Source of the DNA: Nocardioides sp.
GTDB taxonomy: Bacteria > Actinomycetota > Actinomycetes > Propionibacteriales > Nocardioidaceae
NCBI RefSeq assembly: GCF_030019515.1
Contig: NZ_JASEEQ010000004.1
Coordinates: 248,001-312,000, forward strand
DNA length: 64,000 nt
Direction: 5' to 3'
Numbering within the stretch: the stretch's first letter is position 1; every line of letters begins with the position of its first letter. The notes under the pieces are model-generated. The model worked only from the letters and a program-made list of their open reading frames with translations, ran no database searches and was not told the origin of the DNA. The position numbers and the translations under genes are program-made. Positions 33,946-38,986 of the stretch are shown in pieces.

Positions 33946-36900
33946 ATGGGCTGGAGCAACCCTCCGATCTCCTGGGGCGAGCTGGAGAAGCGGCTCTCCG
34001 GGCGGGTCGGCACGCCCCAGGACCCCGAGGCGCCGATCTCGACCCGCAAGCGCAGGCGCACCCGGGTCGACGTGGCGCGGCCCGACGGCCCGGTGACGCC
34101 GTACGCCGAGCTGCACTGCCACTCCAGCTTCAGCTTCCTCGACGGCGCCAGCGGCCCCGACCACCTGGTGCTCGAAGCGATCCGGCTCGGGCTGCACGGG
34201 CTCGCGATCACCGATCACGACGGGTTCTACGGGGCGCCGCTGTTCGCCGAGACGGCGAAGATGTACGGCGACCTGAGGACGGCCTACGGGGCCGAGCTCT
34301 CCCTCGGCCTGACCAGGCCGCAGAACGGCGTCGCCGACCCCGAGGGCGGCCACCTGCTGGTGCTGGCCCGGGGCGTCGAGGGCTACCACCGGCTGGCCGC
34401 CGCGATCACCGACGCCCAGCTGCGCGGCGACGAGAAGGGCCGGCCCGTCTACGACCTGGGCGAGCTCGCCGAGCGGGCCGGCGGCCGCCGCGACGGGCAC
34501 TGGCTGGTGCTGACCGGCTGCCGCAAGGGCGCCGTACGCCGAGCCCTCCTCGAGCACGGGTCCGCGGCCGCGGCCGCCGAGCTGGACCGGCTCACCGCGC
34601 TCTTCGGCCACGGCAACGTCGTGGTGGAGCTGATCGACCACGGCTACCCCGCCGACTCCACCCACAACGACCTGCTCGCGGCGCTGGCGGCCGACCACGG
34701 GTTGCCGGTGGTGGCCACCAACAACGTCCACCACGCCCGGCCCGAGCAGCACCGGATCGCCGACGCGATGGCGGCGGTCCGGGCCCGACGCAGCCTCGCC
34801 GAGATGGACGGCTGGCTGCCGGCGTCCGGGATGGCCTGCCTGCGGTCGGGGGAGGAGATGGCGCGCCGGTTCGCCCGCTACCCCGGGGCGGTGGCACGCA
34901 GCGTCGAGCTCGCCGGCGAGGTGGCCTTCGACCTGCAGAAGGCCACCCCCCGGCTGCCCAAGGACGGCATCCCCGCCGGGCACACGCCGGCCACCTGGCT
35001 GCGCGAGCTGACCGAGCAGGGGTTCGCGCAGCGGTACGCCGGGGGACCGCTCGAGACGCAGGCCCGCGAGACCGTCGAGCACGAGCTGCGGATCATCGGC
35101 GAGAAGGACTTCGACGGCTACTTCGTGATCGTCCACGACATCGTGGCATTCGCGCGCTCGCGGGGGATCCTGTGCCAGGGCCGCGGATCCGCGGCCAGCT
35201 CGGCGGTCTGCTACGCGCTCGGTATCACCGCGATCGACCCGGTCTTCTACCGGCTGCCGTTCGAGCGGTTCATCTCCCAGCACCGCGACGAGGAGCCGGA
35301 CATCGACGTCGACTTCGACTCCGACCGCCGCGAGGAGGTGATCCAGTGGGTCTACGACCGCTACGGCCGGCACAACGCCGCGCAGGTCGCGAACGTCGTC
35401 GGCTACCGGCCCAAGATGGCGGTCCGGGACGCGGCCAAGGCGCTGGGGCACTCCCCGGGCCAGCAGGACGCCTGGTCCAAGCAGGTCACGTCGTGGACGA
35501 CGGTGGCCTCACGTGACGGCGGCGAGCACCCCGCTGATCTCGACGTACCCGCTCCCGTCGTCGAGCTCGCCAACGGCTTCCTGGGAGCCCCGCGCCACCT
35601 CGGCATCCACTCCGGCGGCATGGTGCTCACCGAGCGACCGATCGGCGAGGTCGTGCCGATCGAGCGGGCTCGCATGGACAAGCGCACCGTCCTGCAGTGG
35701 GACAAGGACGGCTGCGAGTTCATGGGACTGGTCAAGTTCGACCTGCTCGGGCTCGGAATGCTCAGCGCGCTCGACCACATGATGCGCATCGTCGAGCAGC
35801 ACCTCGGCGAGCACTGGGAGCTCAGCACGATCCCCAAGGAGGAGCCGGCGGTCTACGACCTGCTCTGCCGGGCCGACTCGGTCGGGGTGTTCCAGGTCGA
35901 GAGCCGTGCCCAGATCGGCACGCTGCCGCGGCTGCGGCCCCGGGAGTTCTACGACCTCGCGATCGAGATCGCGCTGATCCGGCCCGGCCCCATCCAGGGC
36001 GGCGCGGTCCACCCCTACATCCGGCGGGCCACGGGACGTGAGGAGGTCGAGTACGCCCACCCGTTGCTGGTGCCGGTGCTCGAGCGCACCAAAGGGGTGC
36101 CGCTGTTCCAGGAGCAGCTGATGGACATGGCCCGGGTGCTCGGCGACTGCACCCGCGACGAGGCCGACCTGCTGCGGCGGGCGATGGGCTCCAAGCGCGG
36201 CATCGAGCGGATCGAGAGCATCAAGGACAAGCTCTACGCCGGGATGGCCCGCAAGGGGCTGGTCGGCGAGGAGGCCGACGCGATCTACCTCAAGATCCTG
36301 TCGTTCGCGAACCTCGGCTTCGCCGAGAGCCACGCGCTGTCGTTCGCCAAGCTCGTCTACGCCAGCTCCTGGTGCAAGCTGCACTACCCGGGGGCGTTCC
36401 TCGCCGCGCTGCTGCGGGCCCAGCCGATGGGGTTCTACTCCCCGCAGTCGCTGGTCCACGACTCCCGGCGGCACGGCGTCGAGGTGCGGCGTCCCGACCT
36501 GGTCCGCTCCGCGGCGAGCGCCGACCTGGAGCCGCTGGGCGACCAGCGGGGTGCGGGCGGGCCGGCCGGTCTGCCCGGGTGCCTGGCCGACCATCCGGAG
36601 CGGACCGAGTGGGTCACCGGCACGCCCGATCCCACCCCGGCGCACCGGCGGGACGAGGCGTACGCCGTACGCCTCGGGCTGGACGCGGTCCGCGGCATCA
36701 GCACCCCCGTCGCCGAGCGGATCGTCGCCGCCCGGGCCGAGCGCCCGTTCGCCGACCAGACCGACCTGTCCCGGCGGGCCGGCCTCGACGCCGGGCAGCT
36801 GGAGGCGCTGGCCACGGCCGGCGCCTTCGACGACGCGTTCCCCGGGGGCGGGCTGTCACGACGCCAGGCGCTGTGGAACGCCGGCTGGACCGAGGGCGAG

Positions 36901-37392
36901 GAGCACCTGGAGGGCATCCGGGTCGCGGGTCCGGCGCCGATGCTGCCCGAGATGGACGACGTCGAGGTCACCATGGCCGACCTGTGGGCCACCGGGATCA
37001 CGCCCGAGCAGCACCCGTTCGGCCACCTGCGCGACCGGCTGCGGGCCGCGGGCATCAAGTCGGTGGCCGACACCGCGACCGCCGAGCCGGGGCGCCGGGT
37101 GCACGTCGCCGGCCTGGTCACCCACCGACAGCGGCCGGGCACCGCCGGTGGCGTCACGTTCCTCAACCTCGAGGACGAGACCGGGATGCTCAACGTGATC
37201 TGCACGGTCGGGGTGTGGCGGCGGCACCGCGCCACGGCTGCCAGCGCCGCCGGGATGGTGGTGCGCGGCATCCTCGAGCGCCAGGACGGCGTGACCAACC
37301 TGGTCGCCGACCGGCTCGCCCCGATCGAGGCGGTCCACCCCGAGGCCGGTCAGGCCCTGCGCTCCCGGCACCGCTCCCGCGACTTCCAGTGA
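33946..37392 (+). CDS. dnaE2: error-prone DNA polymerase III alpha subunit DnaE2
   Basis: A 1148-residue C-family polymerase, the catalytic part of the SOS mutasome that copies damaged DNA with mutation. The PHP domain opens with AELHCHSSFSFLDGAS and ITDHDGFYG. The polymerase active site is PDIDVDFDSDRRE near residue 450, and VLQWDKDGCEFMGLVKFDLLGL and GLDAVRGISTPVAERI follow. An OB-fold domain lies near the C-terminus. It is shorter than replicative DnaE1 and lacks its extended C-terminal region. Cotranscribed with imuA'-imuB under LexA. Confidence 0.96.
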   Translation: MGWSNPPISWGELEKRLSGRVGTPQDPEAPISTRKRRRTRVDVARPDGPVTPYAELHCHSSFSFLDGASGPDHLVLEAIRLGLHGLAITDHDGFYGAPLFAETAKMYGDLRTAYGAELSLGLTRPQNGVADPEGGHLLVLARGVEGYHRLAAAITDAQLRGDEKGRPVYDLGELAERAGGRRDGHWLVLTGCRKGAVRRALLEHGSAAAAAELDRLTALFGHGNVVVELIDHGYPADSTHNDLLAALAADHGLPVVATNNVHHARPEQHRIADAMAAVRARRSLAEMDGWLPASGMACLRSGEEMARRFARYPGAVARSVELAGEVAFDLQKATPRLPKDGIPAGHTPATWLRELTEQGFAQRYAGGPLETQARETVEHELRIIGEKDFDGYFVIVHDIVAFARSRGILCQGRGSAASSAVCYALGITAIDPVFYRLPFERFISQHRDEEPDIDVDFDSDRREEVIQWVYDRYGRHNAAQVANVVGYRPKMAVRDAAKALGHSPGQQDAWSKQVTSWTTVASRDGGEHPADLDVPAPVVELANGFLGAPRHLGIHSGGMVLTERPIGEVVPIERARMDKRTVLQWDKDGCEFMGLVKFDLLGLGMLSALDHMMRIVEQHLGEHWELSTIPKEEPAVYDLLCRADSVGVFQVESRAQIGTLPRLRPREFYDLAIEIALIRPGPIQGGAVHPYIRRATGREEVEYAHPLLVPVLERTKGVPLFQEQLMDMARVLGDCTRDEADLLRRAMGSKRGIERIESIKDKLYAGMARKGLVGEEADAIYLKILSFANLGFAESHALSFAKLVYASSWCKLHYPGAFLAALLRAQPMGFYSPQSLVHDSRRHGVEVRRPDLVRSAASADLEPLGDQRGAGGPAGLPGCLADHPERTEWVTGTPDPTPAHRRDEAYAVRLGLDAVRGISTPVAERIVAARAERPFADQTDLSRRAGLDAGQLEALATAGAFDDAFPGGGLSRRQALWNAGWTEGEEHLEGIRVAGPAPMLPEMDDVEVTMADLWATGITPEQHPFGHLRDRLRAAGIKSVADTATAEPGRRVHVAGLVTHRQRPGTAGGVTFLNLEDETGMLNVICTVGVWRRHRATAASAAGMVVRGILERQDGVTNLVADRLAPIEAVHPEAGQALRSRHRSRDFQ

Positions 37393-37431
37393 CCCCACCC
37401 CCCACCACGTTGATTCGGGACTCCGTACGCC

Positions 37432-37514
37432 GAGTCGGCGCGTCTTGCCCGCGTGGAGGGCTCGAGTCGGCGCGTCTTGCCCGCGGTGGGGGCTCGAGTC
37501 GGCGCGTCTTGCCC
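37432..37514 (+). repeat. 32-bp tandem repeat array, three copies
   Basis: The core GAGTCGGCGCGTCTTGCCC occurs at 37432, 37464 and 37496, an exact 32-base period; between cores lie variable GC-rich spacers of 13 bases such as GCGTGGAGGGCTC. The same core in reverse orientation makes up the second array 30 bases on. It begins 40 bases after the dnaE2 stop. Confidence 0.9.
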
Positions 37515-37543
37515 ACTTCCTCCACAGTTGCCGGCCGCGAGGC

Positions 37544-37693
37544 GGGCATGATGCGCCGAGTCGGCGGTGCTGGGCGGGCATGATGCGCCGAGTCGGCGGT
37601 GCTGGGCGGGCATGATGCGCCGAGTCGGCGGTGCTGGGTGGGCATGATGCGCCGAGTCGGCGGTCCTGGGTGGGCATGATGCGCCGACTCGGC
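37544..37693 (-). repeat. 32-bp tandem repeat array, five copies, inverted relative to the first
   Basis: GGGCATGATGCGCCGAGTC starts at 37544, 37576, 37608, 37640 and 37672, again exactly 32 bases apart. The last copy has GACTC for GAGTC. The reverse complement of the core, GAGTCGGCGCATCATGCCC, differs from the first array at two positions. Each unit carries an 11-base near-palindrome GCCGAGTCGGC. The array ends 39 bases before the hemW start and contains no supported gene. Confidence 0.9.
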
Positions 37694-37732
37694 GATGGGG
37701 GGCGGGTGGGGCGTCGGTGGGAGGATGAGCCG

Positions 37733-38986
37733 GTGCCCCCGTCCGCCTTGCCCGCCGGTGACCCGGTGCCCGAGGACGGCTCGCTGCCGGAGAGCGCGCT
37801 GGAGCACGTGGGGGAGCGGGGCTTCGGGTTCTACGTGCACGTGCCGTTCTGCACGGTGCGGTGCGGCTACTGCGACTTCAACACCTACACCGCCGAGGAG
37901 CTGGGACCTGCCGGCGGGGCGCCCGGGGCGAGCCGGGCGACGTACGCCGAGGCCGCGATCGCCGAGGTGCGCCGGGCGCGGCAGGTGCTCGGCGACGTCG
38001 ACCTACCGGTCGACACCGTGTTCTTCGGCGGCGGCACCCCCACCCTGCTCGGCCCCGCCGACCTGGGGGCGGTGCTGGCGGCGATCGGCGCGGAGTTCGG
38101 GCTGGCCGACGACGTCGAGGTCACGACCGAGGCGAACCCGGACAGCGTGGCCCGCTGGGACCTCGACCAGCTCCGGGCGGCCGGCTTCACCCGGCTCTCC
38201 TTCGGCATGCAGTCGGCGGTCGACCACGTGCTGCGGGTGCTGGACCGCACCCACGACCCGCTCCGGGTGCCCGCGGTCGTCGACTGGGCGCGCCAGGCGG
38301 GCTTCGAGCAGATCAGCCTGGACCTGATCTACGGCACCCCGGGTGAGTCCATCGCCGACTGGGAGGTCAGCGTCGAGGCGGCCCTGGCGTGCGGACCGGA
38401 CCACCTGTCGGCGTACTCCCTGATCGTCGAGGACGGCACCGCCCTGGCCCGCCGGGTCAAGCGCGGCGAGCTGCCGATGCCGGACGAGGACGACCTCGCC
38501 GACAAGTACCTCCTGGTCGACGACCGCCTCGCGGCCGCCGGGCTGGAGTGGTACGAGGTGTCGAACTGGGCGCGCGGCCTCGACGACAACACCGCGAGCC
38601 GCTGCCGGCACAACCTGCTCTACTGGACCGGGGGCGACTGGTGGGGGGTCGGGCCGGGTGCCCACTCGCACGTCGGCGGCGTGCGGTGGTGGAACGTCAA
38701 GCACCCCGCGGCCTACGCGGACCGGATCGCCGCCGGCCGCAGCCCCGGGCACGCCCGCGAGGTCCTCGACGCCGAGAGCCGGCGGGTCGAGCGGGTGCTG
38801 CTCGAGCTCCGGCTGCGCGAGGGCGTGCCTCTCGAGGTCCTCGACCCGGTCGGCCGGGCGGCGGTTCCGGACCTGGTCGCACGCGGCCTGATCACCCAGC
38901 TGGAGAGCGGGTCGGGACACCGGTTGGTGCCGACCCGGCGCGGCCGGCTCCTCGCCGACGCGGTCATCCGCGATCTCCTGCCGTGA
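37733..38986 (+). CDS. hemW: radical SAM heme chaperone HemW
   Basis: A 417-residue coproporphyrinogen-dehydrogenase-like radical SAM protein that traffics heme. YVHVPFCTVRCGYCDFNTY holds the CxxxCxxC cluster motif and VFFGGGTPTLL the SAM contact. SLDLIYGTPGES, YEVSNWARG and the C-terminal HemN domain follow. GTG 37733 is eight bases after GGGAGG; an in-frame extension upstream would run into the repeat array. lepA-hemW proximity is conserved in many bacteria, here separated by the mutasome and other genes. Confidence 0.95.
   Translation: MPPSALPAGDPVPEDGSLPESALEHVGERGFGFYVHVPFCTVRCGYCDFNTYTAEELGPAGGAPGASRATYAEAAIAEVRRARQVLGDVDLPVDTVFFGGGTPTLLGPADLGAVLAAIGAEFGLADDVEVTTEANPDSVARWDLDQLRAAGFTRLSFGMQSAVDHVLRVLDRTHDPLRVPAVVDWARQAGFEQISLDLIYGTPGESIADWEVSVEAALACGPDHLSAYSLIVEDGTALARRVKRGELPMPDEDDLADKYLLVDDRLAAAGLEWYEVSNWARGLDDNTASRCRHNLLYWTGGDWWGVGPGAHSHVGGVRWWNVKHPAAYADRIAAGRSPGHAREVLDAESRRVERVLLELRLREGVPLEVLDPVGRAAVPDLVARGLITQLESGSGHRLVPTRRGRLLADAVIRDLLP

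Follow-up and report, generated by a model that had tools for sequence, protein, structure and literature searches.

Helix-phased facing repeat arrays at gene ends of Nocardioides: a dispersed REP-like family with a possible role as a transcription barrier

The repeat array that separates a dnaE2-type gene from a hemW-like gene in Nocardioides sp. GCF_030019515.1, hereafter the host genome, is one member of a dispersed family of arrays at the 3' ends of genes. As read from the sequence, the spacing of the repeat units and of the two facing arms follows the turns of the DNA helix. The best explanation is a REP-like array of putative protein sites on one face of the helix, acting as a two-way transcription barrier; this reading is tentative, and its probability was put at roughly 45%. 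Its main rivals, a pure RNA terminator and a selfish element, were each considered unlikely. All coordinates refer to the window, which is the whole 64-kb stretch of DNA that was analyzed. The features of the locus are as follows.

33946..37392, + strand: dnaE2-type DNA polymerase III alpha gene, upstream of the array (ORF; Pfam DNA_pol3_alpha E 4e-80, with finger and PHP matches)
37393..37694, no strand: gained block of ~300 bp with approximate ends and no counterpart in the close relative G032 (alignment)
37432..37514, + strand: forward arm, 19-bp sites at 37432-37450, 37464-37482 and 37496-37514, period 32
37515..37543, no strand: centre between the arms, 29 bp, length class X=67
37518..37527, + strand: degenerate centre motif TCCTCCACAG, 1 mismatch to TTSTCCACAG (read by eye)
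37544..37690, - strand: reverse arm, five 19-bp sites at 37544-37562, 37576-37594, 37608-37626, 37640-37658 and 37672-37690, period 32
37733..38986, + strand: hemW-like radical SAM gene (Pfam Radical_SAM E 4e-22)

The name dnaE2 is the reader's assignment, and no profile model separates dnaE2 from dnaE1. The start codon of the hemW-like gene was placed by eye from relatives, and its HemN_C match in Pfam lay below the cut-off of that model. Pattern matching confirmed the three forward and five reverse copies given in the preliminary description, with a spacing of 32 bp inside each arm and 48 bp start-to-start over the junction. When up to three mismatches were allowed, the site pattern matched eight times in the window against 0.10 expected, and none of 100 shuffles reached eight; the tandem-repeat scores were 152 and 283. 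The difference between the arms at two core positions (GTCT vs ATCA) was also reproduced. The odd palindrome that had been ascribed to every unit, GCCGASTCGGC, was present in six of the eight units and absent from the others, and forward units 2 and 3 started with CTCGAGTCGGC. The 13-base part described as variable was found to be a linker that is almost constant within each arm. Accordingly, when the array was tested for the CRISPR pattern of identical repeats with unique spacers, it did not conform, and the earlier view that the linkers are not CRISPR-type spacers was upheld.

To place this array in its genomic context, the core was searched in the whole host genome. With up to two mismatches, 180 matches (93 + 87) were obtained, compared with 11 (7 + 4) for the reversed-pattern control, and with up to one mismatch the numbers were 160 and 0. 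The preliminary description had regarded the array as a local, inert duplication in the event that the core occurred nowhere else and copy number was fixed across strains; the approximately 180 matches exclude the first of these conditions. Thirty-one stretches were taken around exact matches, among the matches listed, and few sites lie outside them because 165 of the 180 matches fall inside; they hold 33 arrays of at least two sites. Over 164 host units, the consensus was GASTCGGCGC-RTCT-TGCCC (GASTCGGCGCRTCTTGCCC), the ten-base half being nearly invariant, and the bases preceding it vary, with CGTC as one of the variants. Neighboring host units were oriented ++ in 52 cases, -- in 52, +- in 26 and -+ in none. 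Thus, all 26 two-armed arrays are tail-in, and 7 of the 33 arrays are one-armed. The variable tetramer was common to 74 of 106 same-arm neighbors vs 1 of 26 facing pairs, which bears out the proposal that each arm expanded separately.

Genes around the arrays were called with a purpose-built dicodon caller trained on host loci. Thirty of the 33 host arrays start within 25 bp of a stop codon, and the array between dnaE2 and hemW, at 39 bp, is one of the three exceptions. The genes on either side are convergent at 17 host arrays, tandem at 15 and divergent at one; all gaps longer than 20 bp in the 31 stretches, those with arrays included, comprised 28 convergent, 61 tandem and 35 divergent ones. 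When loci of every source were pooled, 251 of the 319 flanking genes had their 3' end towards the array, and a further nine overlapped it. The groups recurring beside arrays were groEL (9 loci), acyl-CoA ligases (8), ABC ATPases (7) and an aminopeptidase (5). Judged by eye, the recurrent neighbors were housekeeping genes or members of large families, with no obvious DNA-binder and no transposase-like group among them. On a read-off of the 33 host arrays, no relation was visible between arm copy number and which flanking gene ends at the array. The special link to dnaE2 and the SOS response that the preliminary description had raised was not supported by the host arrays, which adjoin many different genes, or by five relatives (G032, G225, G231, G018 and G055) in which dnaE2 stands directly before hemW with no array. 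The association with dnaE2 appears incidental, although arrays of other cores at the dnaE2 end of G001, G052, G011 and G015 speak in favor of a link.

The distribution of the family was then considered among relatives. Inverted pairs of the constant half GASTCGGCGC were found in 45 of 245 Nocardioidaceae genomes (some with one match only, which may be chance) and in 3 of 26 genera, and the reversed pattern was found in two genomes. Phylum-wide, the inverted pair occurred in 3 of 296 genomes, the host included, and the other two look like chance. A scan of named genomes gave, among the matches listed, mostly Nocardioides with scattered matches elsewhere, and loci L188-L220 are not all proven Nocardioides. 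The loci of other species were collected with patterns that allowed total lengths of 42-72 or 42-70 only, save for G032 and some further loci. The second half of the site is common to many copies within a genome and differs among species, as exemplified by TTGTGCACG, TTGTGTCC, ATCTGCAG and AGTCTCAG. Carriage by plasmids was looked for, and only weak plasmid matches (E 0.3 and above) were obtained; viral carriage was rejected, as three viral contigs had single pattern matches that look like chance. In the Verrucomicrobia metagenome bins AV5 and AV2 (L108, L135, L152, L174 and L180), dispersed inverted pairs of GAGTCGGCGC with a total length of 47-49 and unrelated tails were observed, which are probably a coincidence. 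A literature search on Nocardioides repeats, actinobacterial convergent-gene terminators and REP found no account of the family, subscription papers being mostly outside its scope.

Comparison with individual relatives indicated how the arrays change. In the close relative G032, 11 of 14 sampled arrays are, on a positional check, at loci that also bear a host array; two G032 regions opposite host arrays (L253 and L255) have fewer than two sites and are outside the 14. The centre length was equal at eight of nine comparable loci (65 vs 67 at the ninth), and the arm copy numbers differed at 9 of the 11 common arrays. At the host L050 locus, G032 has a long insertion. In the more distant G225, two of seven arrays were common with the host, one of which has an X of 45 where the host has 67, so that the two differ by about two turns. 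Another host array, L036, has no counterpart in G032, G225 or G184. By parsimony, this array and the one between dnaE2 and hemW would be gains, the latter since the split from G032, but repeated losses are possible. No clear target duplication was visible in two empty-site comparisons. The units between dnaE2 and hemW are nearly identical to those of L045 and L043, which suggests copying of units from one locus to another. The readings of centres, flanks, empty sites and the ATTT behind groEL, and several of the gene names, rest on visual inspection of the sequence.

The spacing of the arrays was analyzed next to these positional data. The 26 host junctions had start-to-start distances of 26-27 (7), 36-38 (7), 48-49 (8), 58-59 (3) and 89 bp (1), with none between, and one 58-59 junction and the 89 junction skip a decayed unit. 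Facing distances group near 36, 46, 57, 67 and 78. A period scan over 5-20 bp gave a best period of 10.5 for the facing distances of the host (R=0.946, n=26) and of 10.6 for the other-species set (R=0.72, n=141), a set that joins relatives' loci and scan loci partly from the same genomes, includes chance loci from other phyla and had duplicates taken out within groups only. The scan kept pairs whose tails agreed at at least 5 of 9 letters, so that the host X values of 87 and 108 are unit-skipping pairs, and the count of 26 junctions was made without that rule. Host arrays share ancestry and the loci are not fully independent; accordingly, the test was redone with one value per class. For five genomes (n=21), R was 0.907 at 10.5, which none of 20,000 random draws reached (P<1e-4), and the pooled class test peaked at 10.4 with R 0.917. 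The exact pitch is uncertain, since a Rayleigh test on X<62 only gave a best period of 10.9-11.1. Within the arms, the spacing in the host was 32 in 96 of the 97 pairs that passed the tail filter. In other species it was 21, 22, 31 or 32 and never 25-30 or 34-41, although single or few pairs had 42, 52 or 64; the exceptions to 21/22 and 31/32 were 23 (1), 24 (3) and 33 (1), and the 24-bp cases were off-phase. Of all the findings, this whole-turn spacing within the arms and over the centre points most strongly to a protein bound to the DNA.

The REP-like family resides, dispersed, at the 3' ends of genes. In the proposed mechanism, its unit of 19-23 bp, CGASTCGGCGC followed by a species-specific tail, would be the site of a putative sequence-specific DNA-binding protein. 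With two or three helical turns from unit to unit and whole-turn spacing between the facing arms, bound molecules would lie on one face of the DNA, in contact along the arms and over the centre. Behind genes, the symmetric complex would most likely stop transcription from both sides, as a barrier or as a fail-safe terminator, and in some relatives the inverted pair may form the stem of an ordinary terminator. Arms would lengthen or shorten in 32-bp steps, and new arrays would arise at further gene ends by copying. A wider formulation, in which the arrays would be a novel type of chromosomal element, was regarded as doubtful: at Nocardioides gene ends, helix-phased facing arrays may assemble a symmetric one-faced protein complex, with a DnaA box in the centre as its possible seed, that insulates neighboring transcription units, with the code and the protein changing between species and groEL-type positions recurring. 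Many gene ends of high-GC bacteria lack classic U-tailed terminators. If a protein reads the arrays, they would represent a protein-based fencing of transcription units in such bacteria, and the species-specific tail would be a natural experiment on the joint change of a DNA-binding code and its protein.

The same position behind genes would be expected if the repeat worked as RNA only, that is, as a dispersed intrinsic terminator hairpin multiplied by slippage, with the DNA read by no protein. The groEL loci agree with this explanation. In 30 chosen genomes, which were mostly array-bearing and not random, the repeat was found within 300 bp behind groEL in 11, and ATTT followed the pair within 6 nt in 9 of these 11 (by eye). 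TTT stood just outside 10 of 12 pairs, and the stems, read by eye, were self-complementary with sequences differing among species. Several genomes without the repeat behind groEL, the host included, have hairpins of other sequence there (by eye). In the named-genome scan, among the matches listed, 30 of 85 pairs had TTT no more than 14 nt away, vs a background of 2.4%; from this count, 18 of 113 scan loci had been excluded as other phyla or chance, and L189, L191 and L212 were judged by sequence alone. The earlier statement that no terminator explains the array was therefore correct for the window, in which no intrinsic terminator with a T-run was found by scanning, and did not hold for many relatives, whose pairs have TTT beside them. 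Some relatives seem to use the inverted pair as a terminator stem, and in the host genome the pair seems to have been expanded into long, imperfect, phased arrays.

The explanation by RNA only is unlikely. A hairpin behind the stop codon is compatible with the distances of 25 bp or less and with the fold of the array between dnaE2 and hemW, the sole array folded (z = -8.8), but such a fold is expected of any inverted repeat. TTT near the outer end was found in 1 of 26 host arrays, so it is only their position that points to a barrier role in the host. Facing host units had 45 identical letters in the variable tetramer vs 58.4 expected (P 1e-5) and one identical tetramer vs 4.3 expected (P 0.04); they avoid identity and hence complementarity. 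Moreover, a hairpin gives no cause for the loop length to move in 10.5-base steps and needs no direct repeats at 21/22 or 31/32 bp. A search of Rfam gave no family match, and the only hit was to the sub-threshold microRNA model MIR7486 (E 0.054).

A selfish non-autonomous mobile element was judged unlikely as well. Here, each arm would be an element end with several transposase sites, the phasing would serve the mobilizing enzyme, and gene ends would merely tolerate insertion. The empty sites of two loci in relatives, the patchy spread over 45 of 245 genomes, and the near-identity of the units between dnaE2 and hemW with those of L045 and L043 are consistent with mobility. So are the genes enclosed by the two arms at L042/L224 and at L226, and the one next to a remnant site at the L059 locus in G032; it is as if array centres accepted gene insertions. 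One such gene lies at the same place between the forward and reverse arms in the host (L042:4158-5132; C11:64360-65331) and in G032 (L224:1382-2347), and its host copy has an AbiEi_4 DNA-binding domain and a weak match to the MTES_1575 nuclease. In G044 (L226:2003-2623), an ArsR-type regulator (Pfam) is between the arms, and in G032 (L326/L332) a probable secreted protein, recognized by eye, is beside the array remnant. The AbiEi_4/MTES_1575 nuclease was considered as a candidate cognate enzyme and set aside, since the host has four matches including the L042 gene itself, no such group is recurrent, and other arrays enclose unrelated genes. Against a mobile element, the Y1 (RAYT/TnpA-REP) transposase PF01797, the one transposase family searched, was found in 0 of 26 genomes, with matches in 5 of 14 controls, and a RAYT-driven REPIN was thereby ruled out. 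The two empty-site comparisons without a clear target duplication and the lack of a recurrent transposase-like neighbor, as read by eye, weigh in the same direction. Finally, the ends of an element should accept any cargo length, and the whole-turn spacing of the centres is not expected from them.

The centres of the arrays contain a further element. In many longer centres, TTSTCCACAG or a decayed form of it is beside the innermost unit. This motif occurred 27 times in the host genome vs 3 for the control, with six occurrences in array centres and one beside a one-armed array, and it was also found in the rpmH-dnaA and dnaA-dnaN gaps, whose genes were recognized by eye. PMC4285127 lists TTGTCCACA as the high-affinity DnaA box of Mycobacterium tuberculosis and Streptomyces coelicolor and describes that whole-turn vs part-turn spacing of DnaA boxes matters. 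A DnaA-linked function, in which the centre box nucleates DnaA, the arms hold a partner, and the arrays titrate DnaA or time replication, would draw on these findings. It was considered very unlikely, because an intact box is missing from 20 of 26 host centres, the short-centre class is too small for a box, and many relatives' pairs have none. Elsewhere in the host, three genes (L297, L298 and L311) have TTSTCCACAG within ~100 bp upstream; one has AbiEi_4, one has DUF559 and a weak MTES_1575 match, and L298 has no Pfam match and resembles L297. A compact DnaA-box-like cluster with an inverted repeat was observed at L307:999-1066 (host C32), ~19 kb from the dnaA-dnaN gap.

Some relatives have arrays built on different cores. 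The dnaE2 3' ends of G001 (L286), G052 (L287), G015 (L288) and G011 (L291) have convergent arrays of other cores with a 21- or 22-bp period, and the groEL ends of G148 and G042 have arrays of unrelated cores with a similar layout. In G042, the core TCGAGGTGTKRGG forms a 22-bp array behind groEL (L365:3190-3360); this core occurs 20 times in G127, compared with 0 to 6 times in 11 further genomes. That other cores form similar arrays at dnaE2 and groEL ends would not be explained by one conserved protein. SbcCD-type nucleases cut in steps of a helical turn. It is conceivable that palindromic terminators are cut and repaired in such steps, giving 21/22/31/32-bp duplications without selection on binding, and the convergent 21/22 or 31/32 arrays of unrelated cores are what this would produce. 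Nevertheless, such a mutational origin is highly improbable. It does not account for a core that recurs over loci and species, for an exclusively tail-in orientation, or for X classes that agree between orthologous loci (identical at 8 of 9). The other cores also have a weak 10.5-bp signal (n=61, R=0.37) and are fitted better by a period near 20. An inert local duplication, for which nothing speaks except slippage within arms, was ruled out with near certainty by the 180 dispersed matches, the spread over the genus and the non-random position, orientation and spacing.

The preferred reading, a one-faced protein array at gene ends, was compared with known systems. Like intrinsic terminators, the arrays follow stop codons, the pair can form a stem, and ATTT is behind groEL in 9 of 11 genomes. 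Unlike them, the host arrays are nearly free of T-runs, contain many surplus units and avoid perfect complementarity between facing units. Plasmid iterons are direct repeats spaced by helical turns, and Escherichia coli oriC has DnaA-site arrays in opposite orientation. The present arrays share direct repeats at whole helical turns, mostly 21/22 and 31/32 bp, and the two orientations with these systems, but they occupy dozens of loci at gene 3' ends instead of one replication origin. According to PMC4285127, the spacing of selected DnaA boxes tolerates a whole turn and not a partial one. In E. coli oriC, both low-affinity arrays are reported to be free of helical phasing, in contrast to the arms described here. 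The dialects of the Neisseriaceae DNA uptake sequence resemble the present family in having a constant core with species dialects and terminator-associated inverted pairs; they differ in numbering thousands per genome (PMC3630211), compared with ~180 sites in helically phased arrays here.

The family also resembles REP, BIME and REPIN elements (GTAG and CGTC families), which PMC3733652 presents as short dispersed intergenic palindromic units forming inverted dimers near 3' ends. By the same account, most conv-REPs are no more than 20 bp from a 3' end, and they stand chiefly in unidirectional and convergent gaps; most families prefer heterodimers, many families have 20-100 units, and CGTC families are without a dedicated transposase. 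In the wide sense, the present family is REP-like, consisting of dispersed intergenic inverted dimers near 3' ends, with 7 of 33 arrays one-armed. In the strict sense it is not, as the consensus has no GTAG or CGTC tag at the foot of the stem-loop and the preceding bases vary. Unlike REP or REPIN, the arrays have neither a GTAG tag nor a RAYT, and they combine a constant half and a species-specific half with a fixed whole-turn period in the arms and whole-turn facing spacing; the word 'helical' is absent from the text of the REP paper PMC3733652. Helix-phased facing arrays at dozens of gene ends set the present family apart from the repeat families compared, of which they are not a feature.
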